DNA from: Frigoribacterium sp. PvP032 | GTDB taxonomy: Bacteria; Actinomycetota; Actinomycetes; Actinomycetales; Microbacteriaceae | Length of the DNA: 64,000 bases | Direction of reading: 5' to 3' | Assembly (NCBI RefSeq): GCF_017833035.1 | Contig: NZ_JAFIBM010000001.1 | Span: 620,001 to 684,000 of the forward strand | Shown here: positions 40,576 through 51,007 of the stretch, one piece after another | Numbering within the stretch: the stretch's first letter is position 1 | Layout: every line of letters begins with the position of its first letter | Notes under the pieces: generated by a model | What the model saw: only the letters and a program-made list of their open reading frames with translations | Told to the model about the DNA's origin: nothing | The model's database searches: none | Position numbers and translations under genes: made by a program

Positions 40576-40934
40576 GACGACGATCCCGAGGCGCTCGCGA
40601 CGATCGTCGCAGACGATCCTGCAGGAGGCGCGGCTGCGGTCGCCGGGGCAGGCAGCGGCGGGTGCATCTCGAGCACCCGCACCGCGCCTCCTGCGTGCGT
40701 CGCCGCGATCGCGACGATCTCGGCCTGCTGCTGCATCGCGGAGGTGCAGGCGAAGCCGTAGGCCGCGGCGACGCGCTGGCTGGCGATCTGCAACGCGGTC
40801 GTCGAGCGGTCGACGAACTCGGCTAGCGGGTACTCGGCGCCGGGCGCGAGCCAGTCGTGCATCACGAGGCTGGGCGAGTAGCACGACGTCTCGGAGCCGT
40901 CGGGCCAGCGCACCTGGAAGGTCATCTCAGGCAC
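40572..40934 (-). CDS. MSMEG_0570-family small protein (nit1 cluster)
   Basis: The 120-residue protein begins with MPEMTFQVRWPDG, characteristic of the small MSMEG_0570 family found only in nit1 clusters. The conserved part includes the Cys/Tyr segment ETSCYSPSLVMHDWL and the helix TTALQIASQRVAAAYGFACT. GTG 40934 was chosen because GGGGAG lies eight bases upstream and the extra residues match the family. It overlaps the nitrilase stop by eight bases. An Ala/Pro/Ser tail of ~25 residues follows the conserved core. The function is unknown. Confidence 0.88.
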   Translation of the reverse strand: MPEMTFQVRWPDGSETSCYSPSLVMHDWLAPGAEYPLAEFVDRSTTALQIASQRVAAAYGFACTSAMQQQAEIVAIAATHAGGAVRVLEMHPPLPAPATAAAPPAGSSATIVASASGSSS

Positions 40935-41838
40935 GGGCGAGGCTCCCCTCGGCGATGCTCCGGCCAGCGGCGGACGCCGCCTCGGCCTCGCCGGTGCGGT
41001 ACGCGTCGGGCCGCCGGTCGCGCAGGTGGAACATGCCGCCGCGCATCGCCCGGAACGTGCCCTCGACGTCGATCTCGGCGATCGCGAGGCCCGCCTCGAG
41101 CAGGGTCGTGGCGAGCACGACGCCGCCGGGGTCGACCACCTTCGCGTTGCCCACGTAGCGGAGCGAGCCGAAGGTGCCGGCCTGGTTCGAGGCGATCCAG
41201 AAGACCTGGTTGTCGAGCGCGCGGGCAGTGTCGAGCAGGTTGAAGCGGTACGTCCAGCGGTCGTCCTGCAGGTTCTCGGCGGTGGCCGTGCGGGCCACGG
41301 GCCAGGCCGACATGCTGACGATGATCTCCGCGCCGTCCAGGGCCAGCGACCGGGCCGCCTCCGGGAACGCCTTGTCGTAGCAGATCTGCATGCCCAGGCG
41401 GCCGACGGGGGTGTCGAAGGCCTCGTAGACGTCGCCGGCCGAGTACGACATCGCCTCGCCGAGGGGCTGGTGCACCTTGCGGTACGAGCCGTAGATCTGG
41501 CTCCCGTCGAGGCAGACCGCGGCGTTGTAGCGCGTCTCGCCGTCGGCGGCGAGCTCGCAGAAGCCGATGCAGACGACCATGTCGCCGACGAGCTGCTGCA
41601 CGCGGCGCAGCTCGGGGCCGTCGAGCGCGACCGCCGGGGGCAGCGAGCGCGTCGTGGTCTTGAGGGTGTCGCCGTGGTTGCCGAGCGACGACAGGTAGCC
41701 GCCGATCGCGGCCTCGGGGAAGACGAGCAGCTGCACGCCGGCCGCCCTCGCCTCGCCGACGAGGGTCTCGATGAGCTCGTAGTTCTGGTCGAGGTCCCGG
41801 GTGAAGTTCGCCGAGACGGCGGCGACGGTCGTCGACAT
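40927..41838 (-). CDS. Nitrilase-superfamily amidohydrolase of the nit1 cluster
   Basis: This 303-residue enzyme has the full Glu-Lys-Cys triad: Glu42 in FPEAAIGGY, Lys121 in SYRKVHQP and Cys153 in QICYDKAFPE. It corresponds to the Nit1 (sll0784-type) branch, linked in pseudomonads to use of cyanide as nitrogen source and induced by nitrogen starvation in cyanobacteria. It hydrolyses a nitrile or amide to acid and ammonia. ATG 41838 has a GAGGAG ribosome site. It is the first gene of the minus-strand arm and lies 70 bases from a perfect GlnR-type box. Confidence 0.93.
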   Translation of the reverse strand: MSTTVAAVSANFTRDLDQNYELIETLVGEARAAGVQLLVFPEAAIGGYLSSLGNHGDTLKTTTRSLPPAVALDGPELRRVQQLVGDMVVCIGFCELAADGETRYNAAVCLDGSQIYGSYRKVHQPLGEAMSYSAGDVYEAFDTPVGRLGMQICYDKAFPEAARSLALDGAEIIVSMSAWPVARTATAENLQDDRWTYRFNLLDTARALDNQVFWIASNQAGTFGSLRYVGNAKVVDPGGVVLATTLLEAGLAIAEIDVEGTFRAMRGGMFHLRDRRPDAYRTGEAEAASAAGRSIAEGSLARA

Positions 41839-41907
41839 CGTGTCTCCTCTGGTCGGTGGAGGCGGTGGCGCAGGTTCCTGCGGTGCGTCCATCAGACGCC
41901 AGGACCT

Positions 41908-41923
41908 GTTTCCGATTGGTTAC
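41908..41923 (-). promoter_or_regulatory. GlnR-type nitrogen-control box
   Basis: On the minus strand the sequence is GTAAC-CAATCG-GAAAC, an exact match to the published actinobacterial GlnR consensus gTnAC-N6-GaAAc. It lies 70 bases upstream of the nitrilase gene in a locally AT-richer divergent promoter. Regulation by GlnR is inferred; no glnR gene is in the window. Confidence 0.6.
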
Positions 41924-42007
41924 AGCCGGAATAAGAACTCGTGTCGCAGGTCGGGGCCGCAATAGAGAGGCACGATCCGCGCCGCCGAAACAAAACGGCG
42001 AATCCTC

Positions 42008-42023
42008 GTAATCCGCCTGCAAC
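42008..42023 (+). promoter_or_regulatory. Second, weaker GlnR-like site
   Basis: GTAAT-CCGCCT-GCAAC on the plus strand keeps the 6-base spacing but departs from the consensus at two positions. It lies about 90 bases upstream of the MSMEG_0572 gene, so each divergent arm would have its own site. Confidence 0.35.
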
Positions 42024-42108
42024 ACGGCGGTCGAAGACTCGGGACCAGATCCAGGCACCGCAGTTCGACCGGCACCGTCTCGTCCCGACCCCGCAAGGAG
42101 CCCGCACC

Positions 42109-42645
42109 ATGAGCGACAACGACATCGACTTCGACCAGCAGGTCCTCGACAACATCGAGATCTCCCGCAACGAGATCGCGCACCCCTCGCTGCCGAAGGG
42201 GAGCAACATCTACGGCTCGACCAAGATCTTCCCCGACTACACGGCCACGAAGGACGAGCACTACTTCCAGCTCGTGCACGGCATCGCCCACGAGTCGTCG
42301 GTGAGCTTCGTCGCCGTGCTGCAGGCGACCAGGGCCCTCCGCAAGGGCTTCACGAGCGTGCTCTACTTCTACGGCCCCGGCTCGATGAACTGCATCGCCA
42401 ACCGCGGGTTCCCGACGACGGGCTCGGACGGGTTCCCCGGCGAGAACAACATCAACAACGCGCTCGAGACGTTCATCGCCGAGGGCGGGACGGTGTTCTG
42501 CTGTCGCTTCGGCCTCGCGCTGCACGGCAACCGCGAGGAGGACCTGATCGCCGGCGTGATCCCGTGCCACCCCCTCGACGTGCAGGACGCCGTCATCCAC
42601 TACGCCCGCAAGGGCGCCATCATCAACAGCACCTACATGGTCTGA
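42109..42645 (+). CDS. MSMEG_0572/Sll0783-family nitrogen-starvation protein
   Basis: The 178-residue protein is a compact, highly conserved member of the Sll0783 family, named after a Synechocystis protein needed for polyhydroxybutyrate accumulation under nitrogen starvation. Conserved cores include YGSTKIFPDYTATKDEHYFQ, LYFYGPGSMNCIANRGFP and GTVFCCRFGLALHG; the CC pair and PCHPLDVQ may bind a ligand or metal. Its biochemical role is unknown. ATG 42109 follows AAGGAG by eight bases. It heads the plus-strand arm of the nit1 cluster. Confidence 0.93.
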   Translation: MSDNDIDFDQQVLDNIEISRNEIAHPSLPKGSNIYGSTKIFPDYTATKDEHYFQLVHGIAHESSVSFVAVLQATRALRKGFTSVLYFYGPGSMNCIANRGFPTTGSDGFPGENNINNALETFIAEGGTVFCCRFGLALHGNREEDLIAGVIPCHPLDVQDAVIHYARKGAIINSTYMV

Positions 42646-42657
42646 GCCGGTGACCGC

Positions 42658-43773
42658 GTGACGATCACGAACGAGCCGCAGGCCCCCGCGCGCGGTGCCG
42701 TCGGCATCTCGAACGGCGGGGCGCTCTCCACCCGCGTCGACGTCGCCATCCGCGGCATCCGGGTCGCCGCCCCCGTGCACCGGGAAGGAGGCGCTGGTCC
42801 GAGCGACGACGGACACGTGCTGTTCCAGGGCCTGCAGTCCGCGATCCCGCAGAGCCAGGACAGCCCGTACCTCGTCGACGACGGGCGACTGCTGCTCGAC
42901 GGCGAGGACACGGGCATCGAGGTCACGCCGGTGGCCCGCCCCCGGTTCTACGACCTGGCGACGGCCGACGGCGTCTCCTACGAGGCGATCGCGCGCCTCC
43001 ACGGGGCCAAGGTGCTGGCGACCACCGTCGTCCAGACCTGCGTGCGCTACGACGTCGCCGAGCGCTGCCGGTTCTGCTCGATCGAGGAGTCGCTGAACGC
43101 CGGCGCGACCGTCGCCGTCAAGACGCCGTCGATGATCGCGGAGGTGGCCGAGGCCGCCTGGCGACTGGACGGCGTCGAGCAGATGGTGATGACCACCGGC
43201 ACCTCGAAGGGGCGCGACCGCGGCGCGACGCACCTGGCCCGCTGCGTGCGTGCGATCAAGGCCGTGGTGCCGGAGCTCGAGATCCAGGTGCAGTGCGAGC
43301 CGCCGGGCGACCTCGCCACCATCACCGACCTGTGGGAGGCCGGCGCGCGCTCGATCGGCATCCACGTCGAGTCGATGGACGACGACGTGCGCCGCCGCTG
43401 GATGCCGGGCAAGTCGCGCGTGTCGATGGACGAGTACCGGGCCGCGTGGCGCGAGGCCGTGCGCGTCTTCGGCCGCAACCAGGTGTCGACCTACCTGCTC
43501 GTCGGCCTCGGCGAGGACCCGGACGAGATGGTCGCCGGCGCCCAGGAGCTGATCGACATGGGCGTCTACCCGTTCATCGTGCCGTTCCGTCCGCTGCGGG
43601 GGACGCTTGCGACCGACGTCGACCACGTGCCCGCGCCGCACGGCTCGGTGCTGCACGACATCACCTTCCGGGTGTCGGAGGCGCTGATCGCGGCCGGCAT
43701 GAAGGGCACCGACCAGAAGGCCGGCTGCGCGGCGTGCGGCGCGTGCTCGGCGCTGCAGACGGCCGGGGGCTGA
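42658..43773 (+). CDS. MSMEG_0568-family radical SAM enzyme
   Basis: The 371-residue enzyme follows the previous gene by 12 bases. The [4Fe-4S] ligands are spaced C128-x8-C137-x2-C140 (TCVRYDVAERCRFC) instead of the usual CX3CX2C, an expanded loop that fits the MSMEG_0568 family. A second cysteine group at the C-terminus (C357, C360, C363 in KAGCAACGACSAL) could hold another cluster. A lipoyl-synthase/BioB-like barrel lies between (VMTTGTSKGRD, VQCEPPGDL, LLVGLGEDPDEM). It probably catalyses the key C-C or C-S step of the nit1 product. Confidence 0.93.
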   Translation: MTITNEPQAPARGAVGISNGGALSTRVDVAIRGIRVAAPVHREGGAGPSDDGHVLFQGLQSAIPQSQDSPYLVDDGRLLLDGEDTGIEVTPVARPRFYDLATADGVSYEAIARLHGAKVLATTVVQTCVRYDVAERCRFCSIEESLNAGATVAVKTPSMIAEVAEAAWRLDGVEQMVMTTGTSKGRDRGATHLARCVRAIKAVVPELEIQVQCEPPGDLATITDLWEAGARSIGIHVESMDDDVRRRWMPGKSRVSMDEYRAAWREAVRVFGRNQVSTYLLVGLGEDPDEMVAGAQELIDMGVYPFIVPFRPLRGTLATDVDHVPAPHGSVLHDITFRVSEALIAAGMKGTDQKAGCAACGACSALQTAGG

Positions 43774-43774
43774 C

Positions 43775-45271
43775 GTGGCGCTGCTCGACGTGCCCGCGCT
43801 GATGGGGCCGCGGGTCGTCACGCCGCCCGCCGCCCAGCTCGCGGCTCAGCCCGCCGCTCCGCCCGCCGCGGAGTTCATCGTGGGGGTCGCGGACCGCGCC
43901 GAGGTCGAGGCGTACCGGCGGCTGCGGCGCGACGCGTTCGTCGACGAGCAGGGGCTGTTCGAGGGCACCGACCGCGACGAGCTCGACGACGACCCGCGCA
44001 CCGTCGTGCTCGTCGCCCGGGCCGGCGGAGGCGTCGTCGGCGGGGTGCGCCTCGCGCCCGTCGGCTCGGAGGACATCGGCTGGTGGACGGGCTCGCGGCT
44101 CGTCGTCGCGCCGTCGGCCCGGAGCGCCCTCGGCGTCGGGTCGGCACTCGTCCGGGCCGCGTCGGCGCTCGCCGAGCAGCTCGGGGTGCTCCGCTTCGAC
44201 GCGACCGTGCAGGTGCGCTCGTCGGTGCTGTTCCGGCGTCTCGGCTGGGAGCAGACCGGCCGCTGCGTGATCGGCGGCGTCGACCACCTCCGGATGCGCT
44301 GGCCGATCGACCGGCACCAGCGGCTCGTCGACGCGACGAAGTCGGTGCTCGAGGCCGTGCTCGAGCCGCACACCGCGTGGGCGGCGTCGCCCGACGGCTC
44401 CCTGGGAGGCGCGGGCTGGGTCGGCGACGACGGGGCGCCCGTGCCGGGCACCGACGTCGTCGCGGCCTGCGACGCGATCCTGCCCTCGATGGTCGAGCGC
44501 GACCCCGAGTGGGCCGGCTGGTGCGGCGTGCTCGTCAACGTGAACGACCTCAGCGCGATGGGCGCCGCGCCCGTCGGGCTGCTCGACGCGGTCGCGGGCC
44601 GCGACGCGGCGTTCGTCCGACGGGTGCTCGCCGGGGTGCGCCGCGGCGCCGAGGCCTGGGGCGTGCCGCTGCTCGGCGGGCACACGCAGGTCGGGGTGCC
44701 CGCCGCGCTCAGCGTCACGGCCCTCGGCCGGACCACGCACCCCGTGCCCGGCGGAGGCGGCCGGTACGGCGACGCCCTCAGCCTCACGGTCGACGTGAGC
44801 GGCTCGTGGCGGGAGGAGCACCACGGCAGCCAGTGGAACTCGACCGAGGGGCGCCGCTCGCACGAGCTGCGCGACCTCGCGGGCACCGTCGCACGGGCAC
44901 GTCCCGCCGCGGCGAAGGACGTCAGCATGGCCGGCATCGTCGGCACCGTCGGGATGCTCGCGGAGGCGAGCGGGTACGGCGCCGTCGTCGACGTGGCGTC
45001 CGTGCCCAGGCCGGGAGGCGCCTCCTCGGGGGCAGCTGCCTCGTCTGGCTCGGGCTCCTCGCACGTGACCGTGGGGGACTGGCTGAGCTGCTTCCCCGGC
45101 TTCGGCATGGTGACCGCCGACCGGCCAGGGGAGTCGCGGATGCACTCGCCCCACGCGGTCACGGCCGAGATCGGCGAGCTGTCGCTGCAGCGCGGAGTCG
45201 CCCTGCGGTGGCCCGACGGCGAGGTCACGCGTGCGGTCAGCGGCGGCGTGACGGGCCTCGGCCCCGCCTGA
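43775..45271 (+). CDS. MSMEG_0567-type fusion: GNAT acetyltransferase + AIR synthase-like domain
   Basis: This 498-residue protein joins two enzymes that are separate genes in cyanobacterial nit1 clusters. Residues ~34-180 are a GNAT domain (AYRRLRRDAFVDEQGLF, RLVVAPSARSALGVGSALV). Residues ~190-498 are an AIR synthase (PurM/ThiL-like) domain with the ATP-binding segments VNVNDLSAMGAAPVGLLDAV, GGHTQVGVPAALSVTALG and AKDVSMAGIVGTVGMLAEAS. The start is GTG 43775, two bases after the radical SAM stop. A Pro/Ala leader and a Gly/Ser insert near residue 410-425 are low complexity. Acetylation plus ATP-dependent cyclisation or phosphorylation of the pathway intermediate is likely. Confidence 0.92.
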   Translation: MALLDVPALMGPRVVTPPAAQLAAQPAAPPAAEFIVGVADRAEVEAYRRLRRDAFVDEQGLFEGTDRDELDDDPRTVVLVARAGGGVVGGVRLAPVGSEDIGWWTGSRLVVAPSARSALGVGSALVRAASALAEQLGVLRFDATVQVRSSVLFRRLGWEQTGRCVIGGVDHLRMRWPIDRHQRLVDATKSVLEAVLEPHTAWAASPDGSLGGAGWVGDDGAPVPGTDVVAACDAILPSMVERDPEWAGWCGVLVNVNDLSAMGAAPVGLLDAVAGRDAAFVRRVLAGVRRGAEAWGVPLLGGHTQVGVPAALSVTALGRTTHPVPGGGGRYGDALSLTVDVSGSWREEHHGSQWNSTEGRRSHELRDLAGTVARARPAAAKDVSMAGIVGTVGMLAEASGYGAVVDVASVPRPGGASSGAAASSGSGSSHVTVGDWLSCFPGFGMVTADRPGESRMHSPHAVTAEIGELSLQRGVALRWPDGEVTRAVSGGVTGLGPA

Positions 45272-45649
45272 GCGGCGCGCGCTGCTGCCCGCTGCCCGCT
45301 GCCCGCTGCCCCCTGACCGCCGCCCGCTGACCGCCGCCCCGACCCCTCGAACCCGCGCGCACCCCTCGGCGCGCTCGCGGGTGCGCGCGGGCCTCGCGGG
45401 TGCGGACGGCCGGCGCTCTGCGACACCCGACGGGAAACACGACCGTAACGACACTGCGCGTCTGCTGGAAACACCCGATGAATACGGTGTGGACCGTGTG
45501 ATCCACACGAGCGGACCGACGGCGATCTGCGAGGCACGAGGCCGTCCCGTCGGCCTCGTCGTGCAGCCCGGCCGTGCGTCCGAGCAGCGTTCCCCGCCTC
45601 GCAGCCGACGTCGAGCCGCGCTCGACCTCGACCGAAGGAACCTGCCCCG
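45272..45649. promoter_or_regulatory. Repeat-rich gap and promoter region of the cohesin gene
   Basis: Bases 45285-45338 are a GCCCGCTG/CCGCCGCCC repeat. A family A copy with perfect 13-bp arms follows (CCCGCGCGCACCC, 45352-45364 with 45379-45391). Then comes a promoter-like region with two GGAAACAC repeats (about 45433 and 45467), a GAAAC-N6-GTAAC arrangement at 45434-45449 with GlnR-box spacing, and a 7-bp inverted repeat GTGTGGA/TCCACAC at 45487-45508. No gene is visible. Confidence 0.5.
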
Positions 45650-46462
45650 ATGCAGCACACCACCCGGCGTCCAGCACGCCCCCGACAGTCCGCGGCTGCT
45701 CGCGGCGTCATCGCCCGATCCCTCTGTGCCCGGACCCTCGCCGCCGGAGCGCTGGCCGTCGGCTCGGTCGCCCTCGCCGCGACCCCGGCCCTCGCCGCGC
45801 CCGCCCCGATCGCGCCCGGGATCACGTCCGGGTCGATCACGGCCCCGGCCACCGCCACGGTCGGCGACGTCGTCGACGCGTCGATCGCGCTGACCGGCAC
45901 CAGCGCCGTCTACGCCTACGAGCTCGTGGTCGACTACGACCCCGCCGTGCTCGACTACGTCGACGGCAGCGCGACCGCTCCCGACGGCGGCTTCGACGCG
46001 GTCGACGAGCAGGACGGCACCCTCACCGTCACGCACACCCGGCTCGGCACCTCGCCCGAGCTCGCGGGCGACCTCGCCGTCGACCTGCAGTTCGCCGCGA
46101 TCGGCGCCGGCGACGGCACGCTCGGGTTCTCCTCGGTCACCCTCGTCTCGTCCGAGGGACTGACGACGACGCTCGCGGCGCCGTCCGCGGCGCCCCTCGC
46201 GGTGACCGCCGCGGCCGTGCCCCCGGTCGACCCGGCACCCGTGCCGGTGCCCGACCCGAGCACGCCTGCAGGAGGCGGCACCGCGCCGGTGCCCTCGCCC
46301 ACGTCGAGCGCGGCCAGCGCCTCCTCGGCCTCGGGGCCCCTCGCCTTCACCGGAGCAGAGGTGCTGCCCGGCATCCTCGCGGGCGCCGCCGTGCTGCTCG
46401 CGGGCGTCGCCGCCGTGGTCGTCGCCCAGGTGCGTCGTCGCCGCTCGGCGGGCACCCGATGA
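45650..46462 (+). CDS. Cohesin-domain cell-surface protein with LAFTG sortase tail
   Basis: The 270-residue protein has a signal peptide (cleavage near residue 50, ATPALAA), a single cohesin-like domain at about residues 55-185 (VGDVVDASIALTGTSAVYAY, LVVDYDPAVLDYVDG, LQFAAIGAGDGTLGFSSVTL), a Pro/Ser spacer and a sorting signal: LAFTG at residue 231, a hydrophobic helix and an RRRR tail. LAxTG is the class E sortase motif of actinobacteria. It should display one cohesin on the cell wall. The next gene encodes a secreted amidase with a dockerin, the natural partner of a cohesin. Cohesin domains also occur outside cellulosomes, so binding to the neighbour needs proof. Confidence 0.88.
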   Translation: MQHTTRRPARPRQSAAARGVIARSLCARTLAAGALAVGSVALAATPALAAPAPIAPGITSGSITAPATATVGDVVDASIALTGTSAVYAYELVVDYDPAVLDYVDGSATAPDGGFDAVDEQDGTLTVTHTRLGTSPELAGDLAVDLQFAAIGAGDGTLGFSSVTLVSSEGLTTTLAAPSAAPLAVTAAAVPPVDPAPVPVPDPSTPAGGGTAPVPSPTSSAASASSASGPLAFTGAEVLPGILAGAAVLLAGVAAVVVAQVRRRRSAGTR

Positions 46463-46536
46463 GCGCGCCGCGCCCCGGCGCTCGCCGCCGCACCTCTCTC
46501 CTGCCCGCCTCGCCCACCTCCTGGAGGACCACCCCC

Positions 46537-48426
46537 GTGACAGCCCCCCGACGCCGCGCCCTCGCCGCGACCACCGTCACCTGCGCCCTGGCGCTCGGCG
46601 GCCTCGTGGCCGTGCCGGCCGCGAACGCCGCCGACGCTGCTGCTGCTGCTGCTGCTGCTGCTGCGGCCGTCGCGCCCGCGCCCGCCGCCGGCACGTTCCT
46701 CGCCCCGTACTGGGTCGAGCTCGACCTGACCGACGACCGCCAGGTCACGGCCGACGACCTCGAGGTGCTGAGCTCCGCGCTCGGGGCGACCAGCGCCTCC
46801 TCGGCGTGGGGTCAGGTGTCGGTCGCCGACACGGACGCCGACGGGGTCATCACCGTCTCCGACGTCGCCGCCCTGTCGCAGCGCATCGTCTACGACGACG
46901 GCCCCTTCGAGATCGTCGAGGCGTCGGTCGTCGAGATGCAGGCCGCGATGAACGCCGGGGTCACGACCTCGGTCGAGCTGACGCAGGACTACCTCGACCG
47001 CATCGCCGCCTACGACACGGCCAAGGTCGACCCGGCGTCCACCGGTCGTCCGCTGCGCTCGATCATCACGACCAGCGGGGTCGCGCTCGCCGCGGCCGCC
47101 GAGGCCGACGCGACCCGCGCCTCCGACGGGATGACCGACATGCTGCTCGGCGTGCCGATCGCGGTGAAGGACAACTACGACACCGTCGACATGCCGACCA
47201 CCGGCGGCTGCGGCTGCTGGGACGGCAACCAGACCTCGACCGACGCGGCGATGGTCGCGGGGCTCCGCGCGTCGGGCGCCGTCATCCTGGCCAAGGCGAG
47301 CCTCGACGAGTTCGCGTTCGGCTTCGCGTCGGAGTTCTCGTCGTACCAGCCCGCCGGCACGAGCACCCTCGTCGCCAGCCCCTACGTCACCAGCCAGACG
47401 GCCGGCGGCTCGAGCGGCGGCACCGGCGCGGCGATCGCGGCGAACCTCGCCGGCATCGGGTTCGGCACCGACACGGGCGGCTCGATCCGCATCCCGTCGT
47501 CGTACAACCAGCTCGTCGGCGTCCGTCCGACGGTGGGCCTCGCCAGCCGCGACGGCATCATCCCGCTGGCGCTCTCGCAGGACACCGGCGGACCGATCGC
47601 CCGCAGCGTCACCGACGCCGCCGTGGCCCTCGACTCGGTGACCGGCGTCGACGCCGCCGACCCGGTCACCGCCGAGCAGCAGGGCCTCGTGCCGGAGTCG
47701 TACACGAGCTTCCTCGACGCGGACGCCCTCGCCGGCACCCGCATCGGCTACGTGACGTCGATGGTCAGCACGAACCCGACCACGTCGCGGCTCTTCGCGG
47801 AGGCTCTCGTCACCCTGCAGGCGCAGGGCGCGACCATCGTCCCGATCGCGACGCCGCCGGCCGGGTTCGCGGCCGTGCTCGCCGAGAGCAGCGGCAGCAC
47901 GAACGAGTTCAAGCACGACCTGGACGCCTACGTCGCGAAGCACCTGGCGCCGAACGTCGAGGCGCGCTCGTTGCAGGGCGTGCTGGCCTCGGGCAAGTTC
48001 GTCCCGTCGCGGGCGGGCACCTACCGCTCGCGCGACGCCGTCACCGAGGCGACCTACCAGGGCTGGGCGGGCCCGAGCGGCACGCACACCACGGCCATCG
48101 CGAACGGGCACACCCTGGTCACGGCGATGCTCGACGCCCAGGACCTCGACACGCTGATCTACCCGTCGGGCAACCCGTACTCGTCGTTCAGCACGAACAT
48201 GCGCCTCAGCCCGAACACGGGCATGCCGGCCGTGACGGTGCCGATGGGGCAGGCGACCGCGGCCGACGGCACCATCACCGGCGCCGGCGTGAACCTCGAG
48301 TTCCTCGGGCGGGACTACGCCGAGGGCGACCTGCTCGGCCTCGCCTACGCGTTCGAGCAGGCCACGGCGGGGACGCCGCAGGGGCGCACGTCGCCGAGCC
48401 TGTACGGGCCGCTGCCGGCGGGCTGA
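46537..48426 (+). CDS. Secreted amidase with N-terminal dockerin type I domain
   Basis: Starting from GTG 46537 (GGAGG eight bases upstream) the product is 629 residues. A signal peptide and an 11-alanine stretch coded by nine GCT repeats are followed by a dockerin at about residues 57-122 with two calcium loops: D63-LTDDRQVTADDL and D98-TDADGVITVSDV. The amidase-signature domain has its full Ser-cisSer-Lys triad: Lys211 (IAVKDNYDT), Ser292 (AGGSSGGTG) and Ser316 (TDTGGSIRIP). It hydrolyses an amide outside the cell, releasing ammonia. It follows the cohesin gene by 74 bases. An ATG at 46459 would give a longer form with a less usual signal peptide. Confidence 0.9.
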   Translation: MTAPRRRALAATTVTCALALGGLVAVPAANAADAAAAAAAAAAAVAPAPAAGTFLAPYWVELDLTDDRQVTADDLEVLSSALGATSASSAWGQVSVADTDADGVITVSDVAALSQRIVYDDGPFEIVEASVVEMQAAMNAGVTTSVELTQDYLDRIAAYDTAKVDPASTGRPLRSIITTSGVALAAAAEADATRASDGMTDMLLGVPIAVKDNYDTVDMPTTGGCGCWDGNQTSTDAAMVAGLRASGAVILAKASLDEFAFGFASEFSSYQPAGTSTLVASPYVTSQTAGGSSGGTGAAIAANLAGIGFGTDTGGSIRIPSSYNQLVGVRPTVGLASRDGIIPLALSQDTGGPIARSVTDAAVALDSVTGVDAADPVTAEQQGLVPESYTSFLDADALAGTRIGYVTSMVSTNPTTSRLFAEALVTLQAQGATIVPIATPPAGFAAVLAESSGSTNEFKHDLDAYVAKHLAPNVEARSLQGVLASGKFVPSRAGTYRSRDAVTEATYQGWAGPSGTHTTAIANGHTLVTAMLDAQDLDTLIYPSGNPYSSFSTNMRLSPNTGMPAVTVPMGQATAADGTITGAGVNLEFLGRDYAEGDLLGLAYAFEQATAGTPQGRTSPSLYGPLPAG

Positions 48427-48866: not shown

Positions 48867-49685
48867 TCAGACGAGGCCGTGCTCGTACGCGAGGATCACG
48901 ACCTGAACACGGTCGCGCAGGTCGAGCTTGGCGAGCACCCGGCCCACGTGCGTCTTGACCGTGGACTCGCTGACGACGAGCCGCGCGGCGATCTCGGCGT
49001 TGTTGAGGCCCTGCGCGACCGCGAGGAACACGTCGTGCTCGCGCTCGGTGAGCGCCGCGAACGGGCTCGAGGAGGCGGCGGCCCCGCCGCTGAGGTCGGC
49101 CCCGGCCCCGGCCCCGGCACCGCCACCGGCACCTGCGCCTGCGCCCGCGCCGACGCCGGCATGGCCGCCTGCACTGCCGACAGCACCGCCACCAGCACCG
49201 CCACCGGCACCGGCTCCGCCGCCGGCACTGCCGCCAGCACCGCCGGCGCCGCGGGGGAGGCGCGGCAGCGCCACGTCGAGCACCGCCCGCGTGACCCGCG
49301 GCGAGACGACGGCGTCGCCCACGGCGATCGACCGGATGCCCGCGAGTAGCTCGGCCCGCGGCGCGCTCTTCACGAGGAACCCGCTCGCCCCTGCCCGCAG
49401 CCCCGCGAAGGCGTACTCGTCGAGGTCGAACGTCGTGAGGATGAGCACACGGCTCGCGGGCGTCTCGCGGACGATCCGCCGGGTCGCCTCGATGCCGCCG
49501 ATGCCGGGCATGCGGACGTCCATGACGACCACGTCGGGCGACAGGTCCGCGGCCTGGACCACCGCCTCCTCGCCGGTCGCCGCCTCGCCGACGACGACGA
49601 GGTCGTCGGTCGAGTCGACGATCATCGCCATGCCGCGCCGGACCAGCTCCTGGTCGTCGACGAGCAGGATCCTGATGTCGGTCAC
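48867..49685 (-). CDS. NarL/FixJ-family response regulator with a Gly/Ala-rich linker
   Basis: The 272-residue protein has a receiver domain with the phospho-Asp in VVVMDVRMPGIGG and a LuxR helix-turn-helix (ALTEREHDVFLAVAQGLNNA, ESTVKTHVGRVLAKL). The domains are joined by a ~60-residue Gly/Ala linker (GGAGGAGGSAGGGAGAGG and similar), three to four times longer than usual and coded by CCGGCACC-type repeats. GTG 49685 overlaps the kinase stop. It forms a two-component pair with the next gene. Confidence 0.93.
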   Translation of the reverse strand: MTDIRILLVDDQELVRRGMAMIVDSTDDLVVVGEAATGEEAVVQAADLSPDVVVMDVRMPGIGGIEATRRIVRETPASRVLILTTFDLDEYAFAGLRAGASGFLVKSAPRAELLAGIRSIAVGDAVVSPRVTRAVLDVALPRLPRGAGGAGGSAGGGAGAGGGAGGGAVGSAGGHAGVGAGAGAGAGGGAGAGAGADLSGGAAASSSPFAALTEREHDVFLAVAQGLNNAEIAARLVVSESTVKTHVGRVLAKLDLRDRVQVVILAYEHGLV

Positions 49686-51007
49686 CGCGCCTCCTCCGTG
49701 TCGGTCAGCACGACGGCGACGCGCCAGCCGCCGCCGCTGCCGTCACCGTCGCCCGGAAGCGGCCCCGCCGCGACGGTGCCGCCGTACATCCTCGCGCGCT
49801 CGCGCATGCCGACGAGGCCGCGGCCCGCGCCCGCCAGCGGCGGAGCGGCGTCCGCCCCATCGTCTCCGTCGGCTGCGCCCTCCCGACGGCCGGTCCCGTC
49901 GTCGGTCACCGTCACGGACACCTCCTCGCCCCAGTCGAGCTCGACGAGCACCCGGCTCGGCGAGCCGGCGTGCCGGAGGGCGTTCGTCAGCGACTCCTGC
50001 ACGATCCGGTGCACGGCCGTCTGCAGGGCCTCGGAGGCGGCAGGCACGCCCCGCGACTCGACCACCACCGGCAGCCCCGCGGCCCGGAACGAGGCCACCA
50101 GCTCGGGCAGCTGGTCGATCCCCGGCAGGGGCTGCGCCGGGAGCTCGGCTCCAGCTCCGGCTCCGGCTGCTGCTCCGTTCGCTGCCGCCGCCGACCCGTC
50201 GGCGACGCCTGCCGCCGACAGGTCGTCGTCGTCGCCCAGCGCCCCGAGCAGCCGACGCATGTCGCCGAGCGACCGCCGGCCGACCTGCACGATCTCGGCC
50301 ACCGCCTCCTGCGACCTGGCCGAGTCCTTTCGGGCGAGGGCGTCGGCGCCCTCGGCGAGCGTGACCATCACGGAGATGCCGTGCGAGACGATGTCGTGCA
50401 CCTCGCGGGTGATGCGCGCACGCTCGGCCGCGGTGGCGAGCCGCGCCTGCTGGTCGCGCTCGCGCTCGAGGCGCTCTGCGCGCTCGACCAGCGCCTCCAG
50501 CCGTCGTCGACGGGAGCCGACGTCGGAGCCGATCAGCACGGCGACGAGCAGGAGCAGCACCGTGACGAAGGAGGCGCCCGTCGCCTCCCCGAGGACGACC
50601 CTCGACAGCACCGCGACCAGCACGACGACGGCGGCCGAGACGCCGAGACCGATCCAGGCAGCCCGGACCGAGCGGTGCACGGCGAGGGCGTAGAGGGCGA
50701 GGCAGACGGCGAGCGGGTCGAGCCCGCCGTCGACGAGCGCGGCGACGGCCGTGGCGACGGTCACGACCGCGAAGGTCAGCCAGGGGCGCCGGCGCCGCAC
50801 GAGCAGCGCGGCTGCCGAGACGACGACCCCTGCGCCGAGGACGACGTCGACGCCGAGCGGCCGGCCGGTGCCGGTGGCGAGCCAGACGAGCGCGAGGCTC
50901 GTGCCGCTGACGAGCAGGTAGCCGAGGGCGACGAGGGCGTCCACGACGGTCGGACGCGACACGGCCCAGCGGCGCACGGCGCCCGGCGGGCGGGGGCTGT
51001 CGGGCAT
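49682..51007 (-). CDS. Sensor histidine kinase (HisKA_3 type)
   Basis: The 441-residue kinase has five or six membrane helices in the first ~165 residues, the phosphorylation motif ERARITREVHDIVSHGISVM, a low-complexity Ala/Gly insert in the dimerisation-ATPase linker and an ATPase domain (RIVQESLTNALRHAGSPSRV, AGRGLVGMRERARMYGG). Members of this DesK/LiaS-like group often sense membrane or envelope stress. It is coupled to the response regulator by a GTGA overlap. The DUF998-like gene upstream (10 bases away) may be part of the same unit. Confidence 0.92.
   Translation of the reverse strand: MPDSPRPPGAVRRWAVSRPTVVDALVALGYLLVSGTSLALVWLATGTGRPLGVDVVLGAGVVVSAAALLVRRRRPWLTFAVVTVATAVAALVDGGLDPLAVCLALYALAVHRSVRAAWIGLGVSAAVVVLVAVLSRVVLGEATGASFVTVLLLLVAVLIGSDVGSRRRRLEALVERAERLERERDQQARLATAAERARITREVHDIVSHGISVMVTLAEGADALARKDSARSQEAVAEIVQVGRRSLGDMRRLLGALGDDDDLSAAGVADGSAAAANGAAAGAGAGAELPAQPLPGIDQLPELVASFRAAGLPVVVESRGVPAASEALQTAVHRIVQESLTNALRHAGSPSRVLVELDWGEEVSVTVTDDGTGRREGAADGDDGADAAPPLAGAGRGLVGMRERARMYGGTVAAGPLPGDGDGSGGGWRVAVVLTDTEEAR

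Follow-up and report, generated by a model that had tools for sequence, protein, structure and literature searches.

In a 64,000-nt window of the genome of Frigoribacterium sp. PvP032 (assembly GCF_017833035.1, contig NZ_JAFIBM010000001.1, positions 620,001-684,000, forward strand), two adjacent plus-strand genes encode a secreted cohesin wall protein and a secreted amidase carrying a dockerin. The window is the whole stretch of DNA analysed, and positions below are those of the window; the host, described as a soil-type bacterium, has a genome of one contig (3,327,708 bases, completeness 100). Gene 1 (45650-46462) specifies a 270-residue protein in which a signal peptide is followed by one cohesin, a linker rich in Pro, Ser and Thr, an LAFTG motif, a hydrophobic stretch and a basic tail. 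In the product of gene 2 (46459 or 46537 to 48426), a signal peptide and an Ala-rich stretch precede a dockerin and an amidase-signature domain. A Pfam scan of both proteins at E ≤ 1 returned nothing beyond cohesin, dockerin and amidase, and no carbohydrate-binding module was found in the cohesin protein. Here we describe this pair and its conserved pairing among relatives, and weigh the reading that it forms a one-enzyme complex at the cell surface for scavenging nitrogen.

The gene 1 cohesin scores 37.8 bits against PF00963 (cut-off 24.1), the Pfam stretch covering residues 67-136 and the domain as modelled spanning 45797-46225. Its AlphaFold 2 (AF2) model has a mean predicted local distance difference test score (pLDDT) of 94.2 and a predicted template modelling score (pTM) of 0.86, and in a Foldseek search with this model ranks 1-26 are all cohesins or chains of cohesin-dockerin or scaffoldin entries. 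The top PDB matches are cohesin-like modules of Clostridium perfringens (2jh2, 2w1n, 2vo8), the non-cellulosomal cohesin 2xdh of Archaeoglobus fulgidus and type II cohesins. Integrins and YcnI appear from rank 27, so a beta-sandwich alone is not unique to cohesins.

The LAFTG motif lies at 46340-46354 and is followed by the hydrophobic stretch and basic tail, which run to 46459; L231, T234 and G235 of the motif are nearly invariant in the family alignment. We take LAxTG to be the class E sortase motif and assign that of gene 1 to this class. The genome encodes one class E and one class F sortase above cut-off, and one class F-like sortase below it, placing LAxTG, hydrophobic stretch, basic tail and class E sortase together in a single organism. 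The NCBIfam LAVTG model scores gene 1 at 24.7, just under its cut-off of 27. The first-pass annotation had described gene 1 as a secreted protein with one cohesin-like domain and an LAFTG sorting signal, a description that these results bear out.

Gene 2 can begin at GTG 46537 or, in the same frame, at ATG 46459, where an ATGA overlap with the gene 1 stop codon (46459-46462) results; the same 4-base overlap marks the script-chosen start in 9 of 23 relatives' loci having both genes. The dockerin (46723-46887) contains two calcium loops, residues 63-74 and 98-109, with D63 and D98 at position 1 of their respective loops. It exceeds the PF00404 cut-off of 22.9 with a marginal 23.2 bits, so that both domains of the predicted pair stand above their Pfam cut-offs, the dockerin barely. 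The acids of these loops are almost always conserved in the 74 actinomycete dockerins of the family (D63 in 71, D67 in 73, D74 in 74, D98 in 74, D100 in 72, D102 in 68 and D109 in 74); Y119 and D121 are invariant, and S114, R116 and Y119 are retained in 71-74. In an AF2 model of a 134-residue segment comprising the dockerin and the first part of the amidase, the dockerin (model residues 11-60) reaches pLDDT 86-95, and the six best Foldseek matches of the dockerin model are chains of cohesin-dockerin or scaffoldin entries (probability 0.89-1.00).

The amidase-signature catalytic domain (46906-48372) matches PF01425 with 242 bits. In an alignment of 25 sequences K211, S292 and S316 never vary, which agrees with the full Ser-cisSer-Lys triad previously read from this gene; we take these residues to be the triad's Lys, cis-Ser and Ser, respectively, roles that were checked by alignment to 1m21 alone. 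This structure, a peptide amidase presumably from Stenotrophomonas maltophilia, is the closest solved relative (237 bits). It aligns over gene 2 residues 123-612, the alignment beginning only after the dockerin.

Searching the whole genome revealed a single PF00963 match at E ≤ 0.001, gene 1, and a single PF00404 match at E ≤ 1, gene 2 (25.2 bits). The chance of two random single loci falling within 1 kb of each other in this genome is about 0.0006; because the sole matches sit in adjacent genes and this adjacency is conserved, the neighbourhood of cohesin and dockerin is beyond chance. The genome also lacks the hallmarks of a cellulosome, namely a multi-cohesin scaffoldin and dockerin-bearing glycoside hydrolases, as its only cohesin match is single and its only dockerin match is on an amidase. 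The earlier proposal of a scaffold outside cellulose degradation is in keeping with this finding.

Among 349 Microbacteriaceae genomes, the Pfam cut-off is passed by a cohesin in 17 and by a dockerin in 22, and family profiles applied to loci from those with matches yielded at least 25 dockerin-amidases besides that of the window. In 297 genomes of the order, 102 matched the dockerin-plus-amidase profile at E ≤ 1e-6, of which 17 (the window's own included) matched it whole and the remaining 85 mainly on the amidase part. Across 346 phylum-wide genomes, the whole-profile match was found solely in the window's own, and 17 others matched the amidase part. Among the best 80 of at least 523 confirmed related loci, dockerin-bearing relatives include those of the actinomycetes Frigoribacterium, Curtobacterium, Cellulosimicrobium, Mycetocola, Herbiconiux, Demequina, Cellulomonas, Georgenia, Oceanitalea, Microbacterium, Nocardioides, Leifsonia, Agreia and Oerskovia, joined by Paenibacillus and Cohnella from a different phylum.

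To describe the pairing we examined 142 related loci, the related-locus list itself being the best 80 of at least 523 confirmed loci. An amidase core is present in 141; the exception is L067, which holds the cohesin of a pair split between contigs, the other half being L068. Removing 10 duplicates left 131 distinct loci, the window's own pair not counted. Dockerin matches that are not dockerin-amidases of this kind (L086, L089 and L090, and the weak L054, L055 and L057) and weak cohesin matches (L020-L029) had been dropped before counting. By family profile, 84 distinct loci have a dockerin, and 80 of these have a cohesin beside the amidase gene or fused to it: adjacent on the same strand in 70, fused in 5, both in 5. 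The four loci without one (L068, L088, L094 and L109) all lie at contig edges, and the cohesin of L068 ends another contig, L067. By contrast, no cohesin was found in any of 47 dockerin-less relatives (25 Bacillota, 2 Acidobacteria and 20 actinomycetes, the last being the best-ranked dockerin-less rows of the order search). One of these actinomycete controls, L245, did match the search profile over part of its dockerin stretch, though not the dockerin profile.

Because the cohesin profile derives from 51 sequences, those of the window and of the related-locus set, this set matches it by construction. An independent test is provided by the order sample, in which loci were picked by dockerin and amidase alone: all 13 distinct loci (16 minus 3 duplicates) have a cohesin. 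The cohesin gene usually comes first and lies downstream in 12 of 94 dockerin-bearing loci, duplicates included. At one locus, in Demequina sediminis (L104:3033-3863), the cohesin frame is split over two overlapping frames by a frameshift or a sequencing error. A mirror-tree comparison with the amidase core removed gave a partial r between cohesin and dockerin distances of 0.30 over 80 loci and 0.24 over 70 actinomycete loci, values reached in none of 500 permutations; we give this signal little weight because the permutation ignores relatedness.

This distribution bears on whether the two domains still bind each other. They might have ceased to do so, the genes being co-inherited in an operon and the dockerin fold being retained to stabilise the amidase, an idea to which the marginal dockerin score lends itself. 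We nonetheless consider loss of binding highly improbable: cohesin accompanies the dockerin-bearing and not the dockerin-less amidases, the calcium-loop acids are kept together with S114, R116 and Y119, and dockerin-less homologues do exist, most of them with another surface anchor.

The anchor itself changes between lineages. Of 75 adjacent cohesin proteins, 60 match a simple pattern for a terminal LxxTG signal with hydrophobic stretch and basic tail, and at 10 of 10 Paenibacillus and Cohnella loci the partner instead consists of a cohesin and two or three SLH repeats (Pfam); the other five are those of L079, L087, L104 (the split frame), L124 and L221. Among the 25 dockerin-less Bacillota relatives, 20 carry SLH on the amidase itself (E ≤ 0.01). 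A quick amidase tree, midpoint-rooted and with long branches flagged, places the 74 dockerin-bearing sequences of actinomycetes in one group (support 97). Next to it is a Bacillota group (92), which splits into 10 sequences with a dockerin (87) and 25 without (99). The simplest reading would be that one Bacillota branch gave up docking in favour of an SLH anchor carried by the enzyme. As Paenibacillus and Cohnella partners carry SLH and most dockerin-less Bacillota amidases do too, the cohesin-dockerin pair looks like an exchangeable surface anchor.

Natural fusions join the same parts in one chain. A single uninterrupted frame in L075 (7294-9897) runs from a cohesin through an LSATG motif, a hydrophobic stretch and a second stretch resembling a signal peptide to a dockerin-like region and the amidase, and in L235 the cohesin lies within the amidase frame. 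In the Nocardioides loci L120, L127 and L129, dockerin, amidase and cohesin share one frame with no wall signal visible, and these single-chain proteins could link to themselves. Five of the ten Paenibacillus and Cohnella amidases have a cohesin of their own before the dockerin, next to a separate SLH-cohesin gene. Scanning four fusions (L075, L120, L127 and L142) with Pfam confirmed the cohesin in all of them; the dockerin was above cut-off in L142, scored 20.7 against 22.9 in L127 and gave no match at E ≤ 0.01 in L120 and L075. The dockerin of the fusions therefore rests mainly on the family profile.

These architectures raise the prospect that the pair builds chains of enzymes, in which amidases bearing both a cohesin and a dockerin would join head to tail or close on themselves, with a separate wall cohesin as base or cap. 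The five Paenibacillus and Cohnella amidases with a cohesin before the dockerin (Pfam-checked in L142) and the three wall-signal-free Nocardioides proteins would fit such an arrangement, but in the window the amidase bears a dockerin without a cohesin, and the cohesin protein lacks a dockerin, so these two proteins cannot form a chain. For the pair as a whole we regard chain building as unlikely. The conserved pairing, the fusions and the exchange of anchor types support the putative one-enzyme surface complex that the first-pass annotation had proposed.

A candidate regulatory motif precedes the operon. A GlnR-box-like GAAAC-n6-GTAAC matches exactly at 45434-45449 (plus strand), 200 bp upstream of the cohesin start codon, and relatives carry related boxes in a similar range of upstream positions. 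Published actinomycete GlnR boxes, as given in PMC10704036, resemble the sites found here (gTnAc-n6-GaAAc in S. coelicolor and GAAAC-n6-GTATC in S. avermitilis). We compared the upstream regions of 72 of 75 dockerin-bearing actinomycete sequences, the window included (three with fewer than 300 upstream bases were left out). GTNAC-n6-GAAAC occurs exactly in 21 of the 72, as against a mean of 0.10 and a maximum of 1 in 20 shuffles, which preserved dinucleotides wherever the routine succeeded. An exact match to one or more of three box arrangements is present in 38. Boxes were found upstream of 1 of 20 dockerin-less actinomycete amidases, and of none of 10 dockerin-bearing Paenibacillus and Cohnella or 27 dockerin-less Bacillota and Acidobacteria amidases.

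In the Frigoribacterium genome GTNAC-n6-GAAAC has 12 exact sites (L256-L267), and a reversed-pattern control has none. Five of the sites adjoin glnA (glutamine synthetase), amtB (ammonium transporter), a carbon-nitrogen hydrolase gene of the window and two genes for family-5 solute-binding proteins. Taken together, the twelve exact sites outline a putative nitrogen regulon. The site within the window, GTAAC-n6-GAAAC at 41908-41923 on the minus strand, lies between the carbon-nitrogen hydrolase gene (40930-41892, minus strand) and plus-strand genes of the MSMEG_0572, MSMEG_0568 and MSMEG_0567 families. These genes, of which the MSMEG_0568-family member is of the radical SAM kind, make up a nit1-type cluster at 40930-45271. 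Two of the cluster's families, MSMEG_0572 and the MSMEG_0567 acetyltransferase part, are named after nitrogen starvation in NCBIfam.

The nitrogen role was previously argued both from the motifs upstream and from the neighbouring nit1 cluster, and the second of these arguments is weak. When radical SAM and AIR-synthase sequences were searched with tblastn against loci L062-L173, the near-identical L064 alone matched, and we rejected a conserved nit1 linkage as evidence. Because the position of the cluster beside the pair is not conserved, the evidence for nitrogen is the shared motif and not the neighbourhood. The wider neighbourhood was likewise tried as a clue to substrate, and an all-against-all comparison of flanking open reading frames gave clusters that fell within genera or looked antisense or out of frame, and was left unused. 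Downstream of the pair, at 48870-51007 on the minus strand, lie a response regulator (best NCBIfam match NarL, below cut-off) and a histidine kinase, and we found no link between these genes and the pair.

Amidase-signature enzymes act on many substrates, and the surface complex could be real while its amidase serves another purpose, acting on the cell's own envelope (for example on amidated wall peptides) and not in nitrogen scavenging. A location at the wall, as predicted, would suit this. Set against it are the boxes that the operon shares with glnA, amtB and solute-uptake genes and the nature of the nearest solved relatives, which are peptide amidases and so suggest a peptide-amide substrate; an envelope target is to our minds improbable. 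A nitrogen-scavenging role is the one that the comparisons support.

We favour, with reasonable though not full confidence, a model in which the two genes form an operon for a wall-anchored, one-to-one amidase complex that scavenges nitrogen under GlnR. Both proteins would be exported, and the class E sortase would use LAFTG to attach the cohesin protein to the wall. The calcium-loaded dockerin of the amidase would then bind the wall cohesin and keep the enzyme at the surface, where it may free ammonia from external amides, most likely peptide amides. In nitrogen starvation GlnR would turn on the operon along with glnA, amtB, the carbon-nitrogen hydrolase gene and peptide uptake genes.

Several observations pull the other way. 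On the side of docking, they are the narrow margin of the Pfam dockerin score, the poor overall quality of the AF2 dockerin segment (mean pLDDT 74.9, pTM 0.47) and the weak E values of its six best Foldseek matches (0.08-0.46), with no match of the dockerin model reaching E 0.001. The actinomycete controls for the pairing are distant, with core scores of 130-357 bits compared with about 534-907 for dockerin-bearing loci. Surface anchoring is not universal, since the cohesins of four Nocardioides loci show no visible sorting signal or SLH, and the proteins of L079 and L087, despite a hydrophobic tail, lack LxxTG. A peptide-amide substrate is suggested by homology alone. As for regulation, the window's own arrangement, GAAAC-n6-GTNAC, is weak by itself because it has 3 matches in the genome against 1 for the reversed-pattern control, and an exact box is absent from 34 of the 72 actinomycete upstream regions. 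Among the 12 genomic GTNAC-n6-GAAAC sites, two are ambiguous (one between subtilase and acetyl-CoA synthetase genes, one by an ABC ATPase) and five have no evident nitrogen or solute-uptake gene nearby. MtrA, too, binds GlnR boxes, according to a title cited in PMC10704036.

The proposed complex has relatives among known systems. In cellulosomes, anchoring scaffoldins (of the SLH type or, in Ruminococcus, the sortase type, by the classification in PMC11557425) are likewise wall-anchored cohesins holding dockerin-bearing partners. Unlike them, the present system has one cohesin for one amidase and a single cohesin and dockerin match in the whole genome. The survey in PMC11557425 demanded at least two cohesins per protein and a dockerin-glycoside hydrolase, criteria by which it would miss the present system; it lists a Paenibacillus (P. 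guangzhouensis) with a two-cohesin protein, and its text contains no word starting with amidase. The NagJ/NagH pairs of C. perfringens (2ozn, 2jh2) also lie outside cellulosomes, and 2jh2 is the closest cohesin by fold, while 2ozn_B is among the Foldseek matches of the dockerin model (rank 8, E 0.79). In C. perfringens the cohesin is on a glycoside hydrolase, whereas in Frigoribacterium it is on a stand-alone wall anchor beside the amidase gene.

Wall-anchored cohesins are thus known already from cellulosomes, and non-cellulosomal pairs from C. perfringens. What appears to be new is a conserved stand-alone module that serves one enzyme outside polysaccharide degradation and combines exchangeable anchors with nitrogen boxes. 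Among the matches listed in the open-access literature, which was the scope of our search, we found no description of such a one-amidase cohesin-dockerin system and no peptide amidase with a dockerin, and GlnR and dockerin came together solely in a Geobacillus engineering paper.

A bolder extension is that such modules make up a widespread non-cellulosomal class, in which one enzyme and one exchangeable anchor (sortase, SLH or fusion) serve nitrogen acquisition and which also takes the form of self-linking chains, on or off the cell, in Paenibacillus/Cohnella and Nocardioides; we offer it as possible but rather doubtful. The small natural pair may be usable for engineering, presents a clean case of anchor exchange between sortase, SLH and fusion, and would allow a direct test of the role of stand-alone cohesins. 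Our results suggest that surveys requiring multi-cohesin scaffoldins apparently overlook such systems. Cohesin-dockerin pairs are known mainly from anaerobic degraders of plant fibre. In common actinomycetes and in Paenibacillaceae the pair would form a minimal one-to-one module that is conserved and seems tied to nitrogen and not to cellulose.

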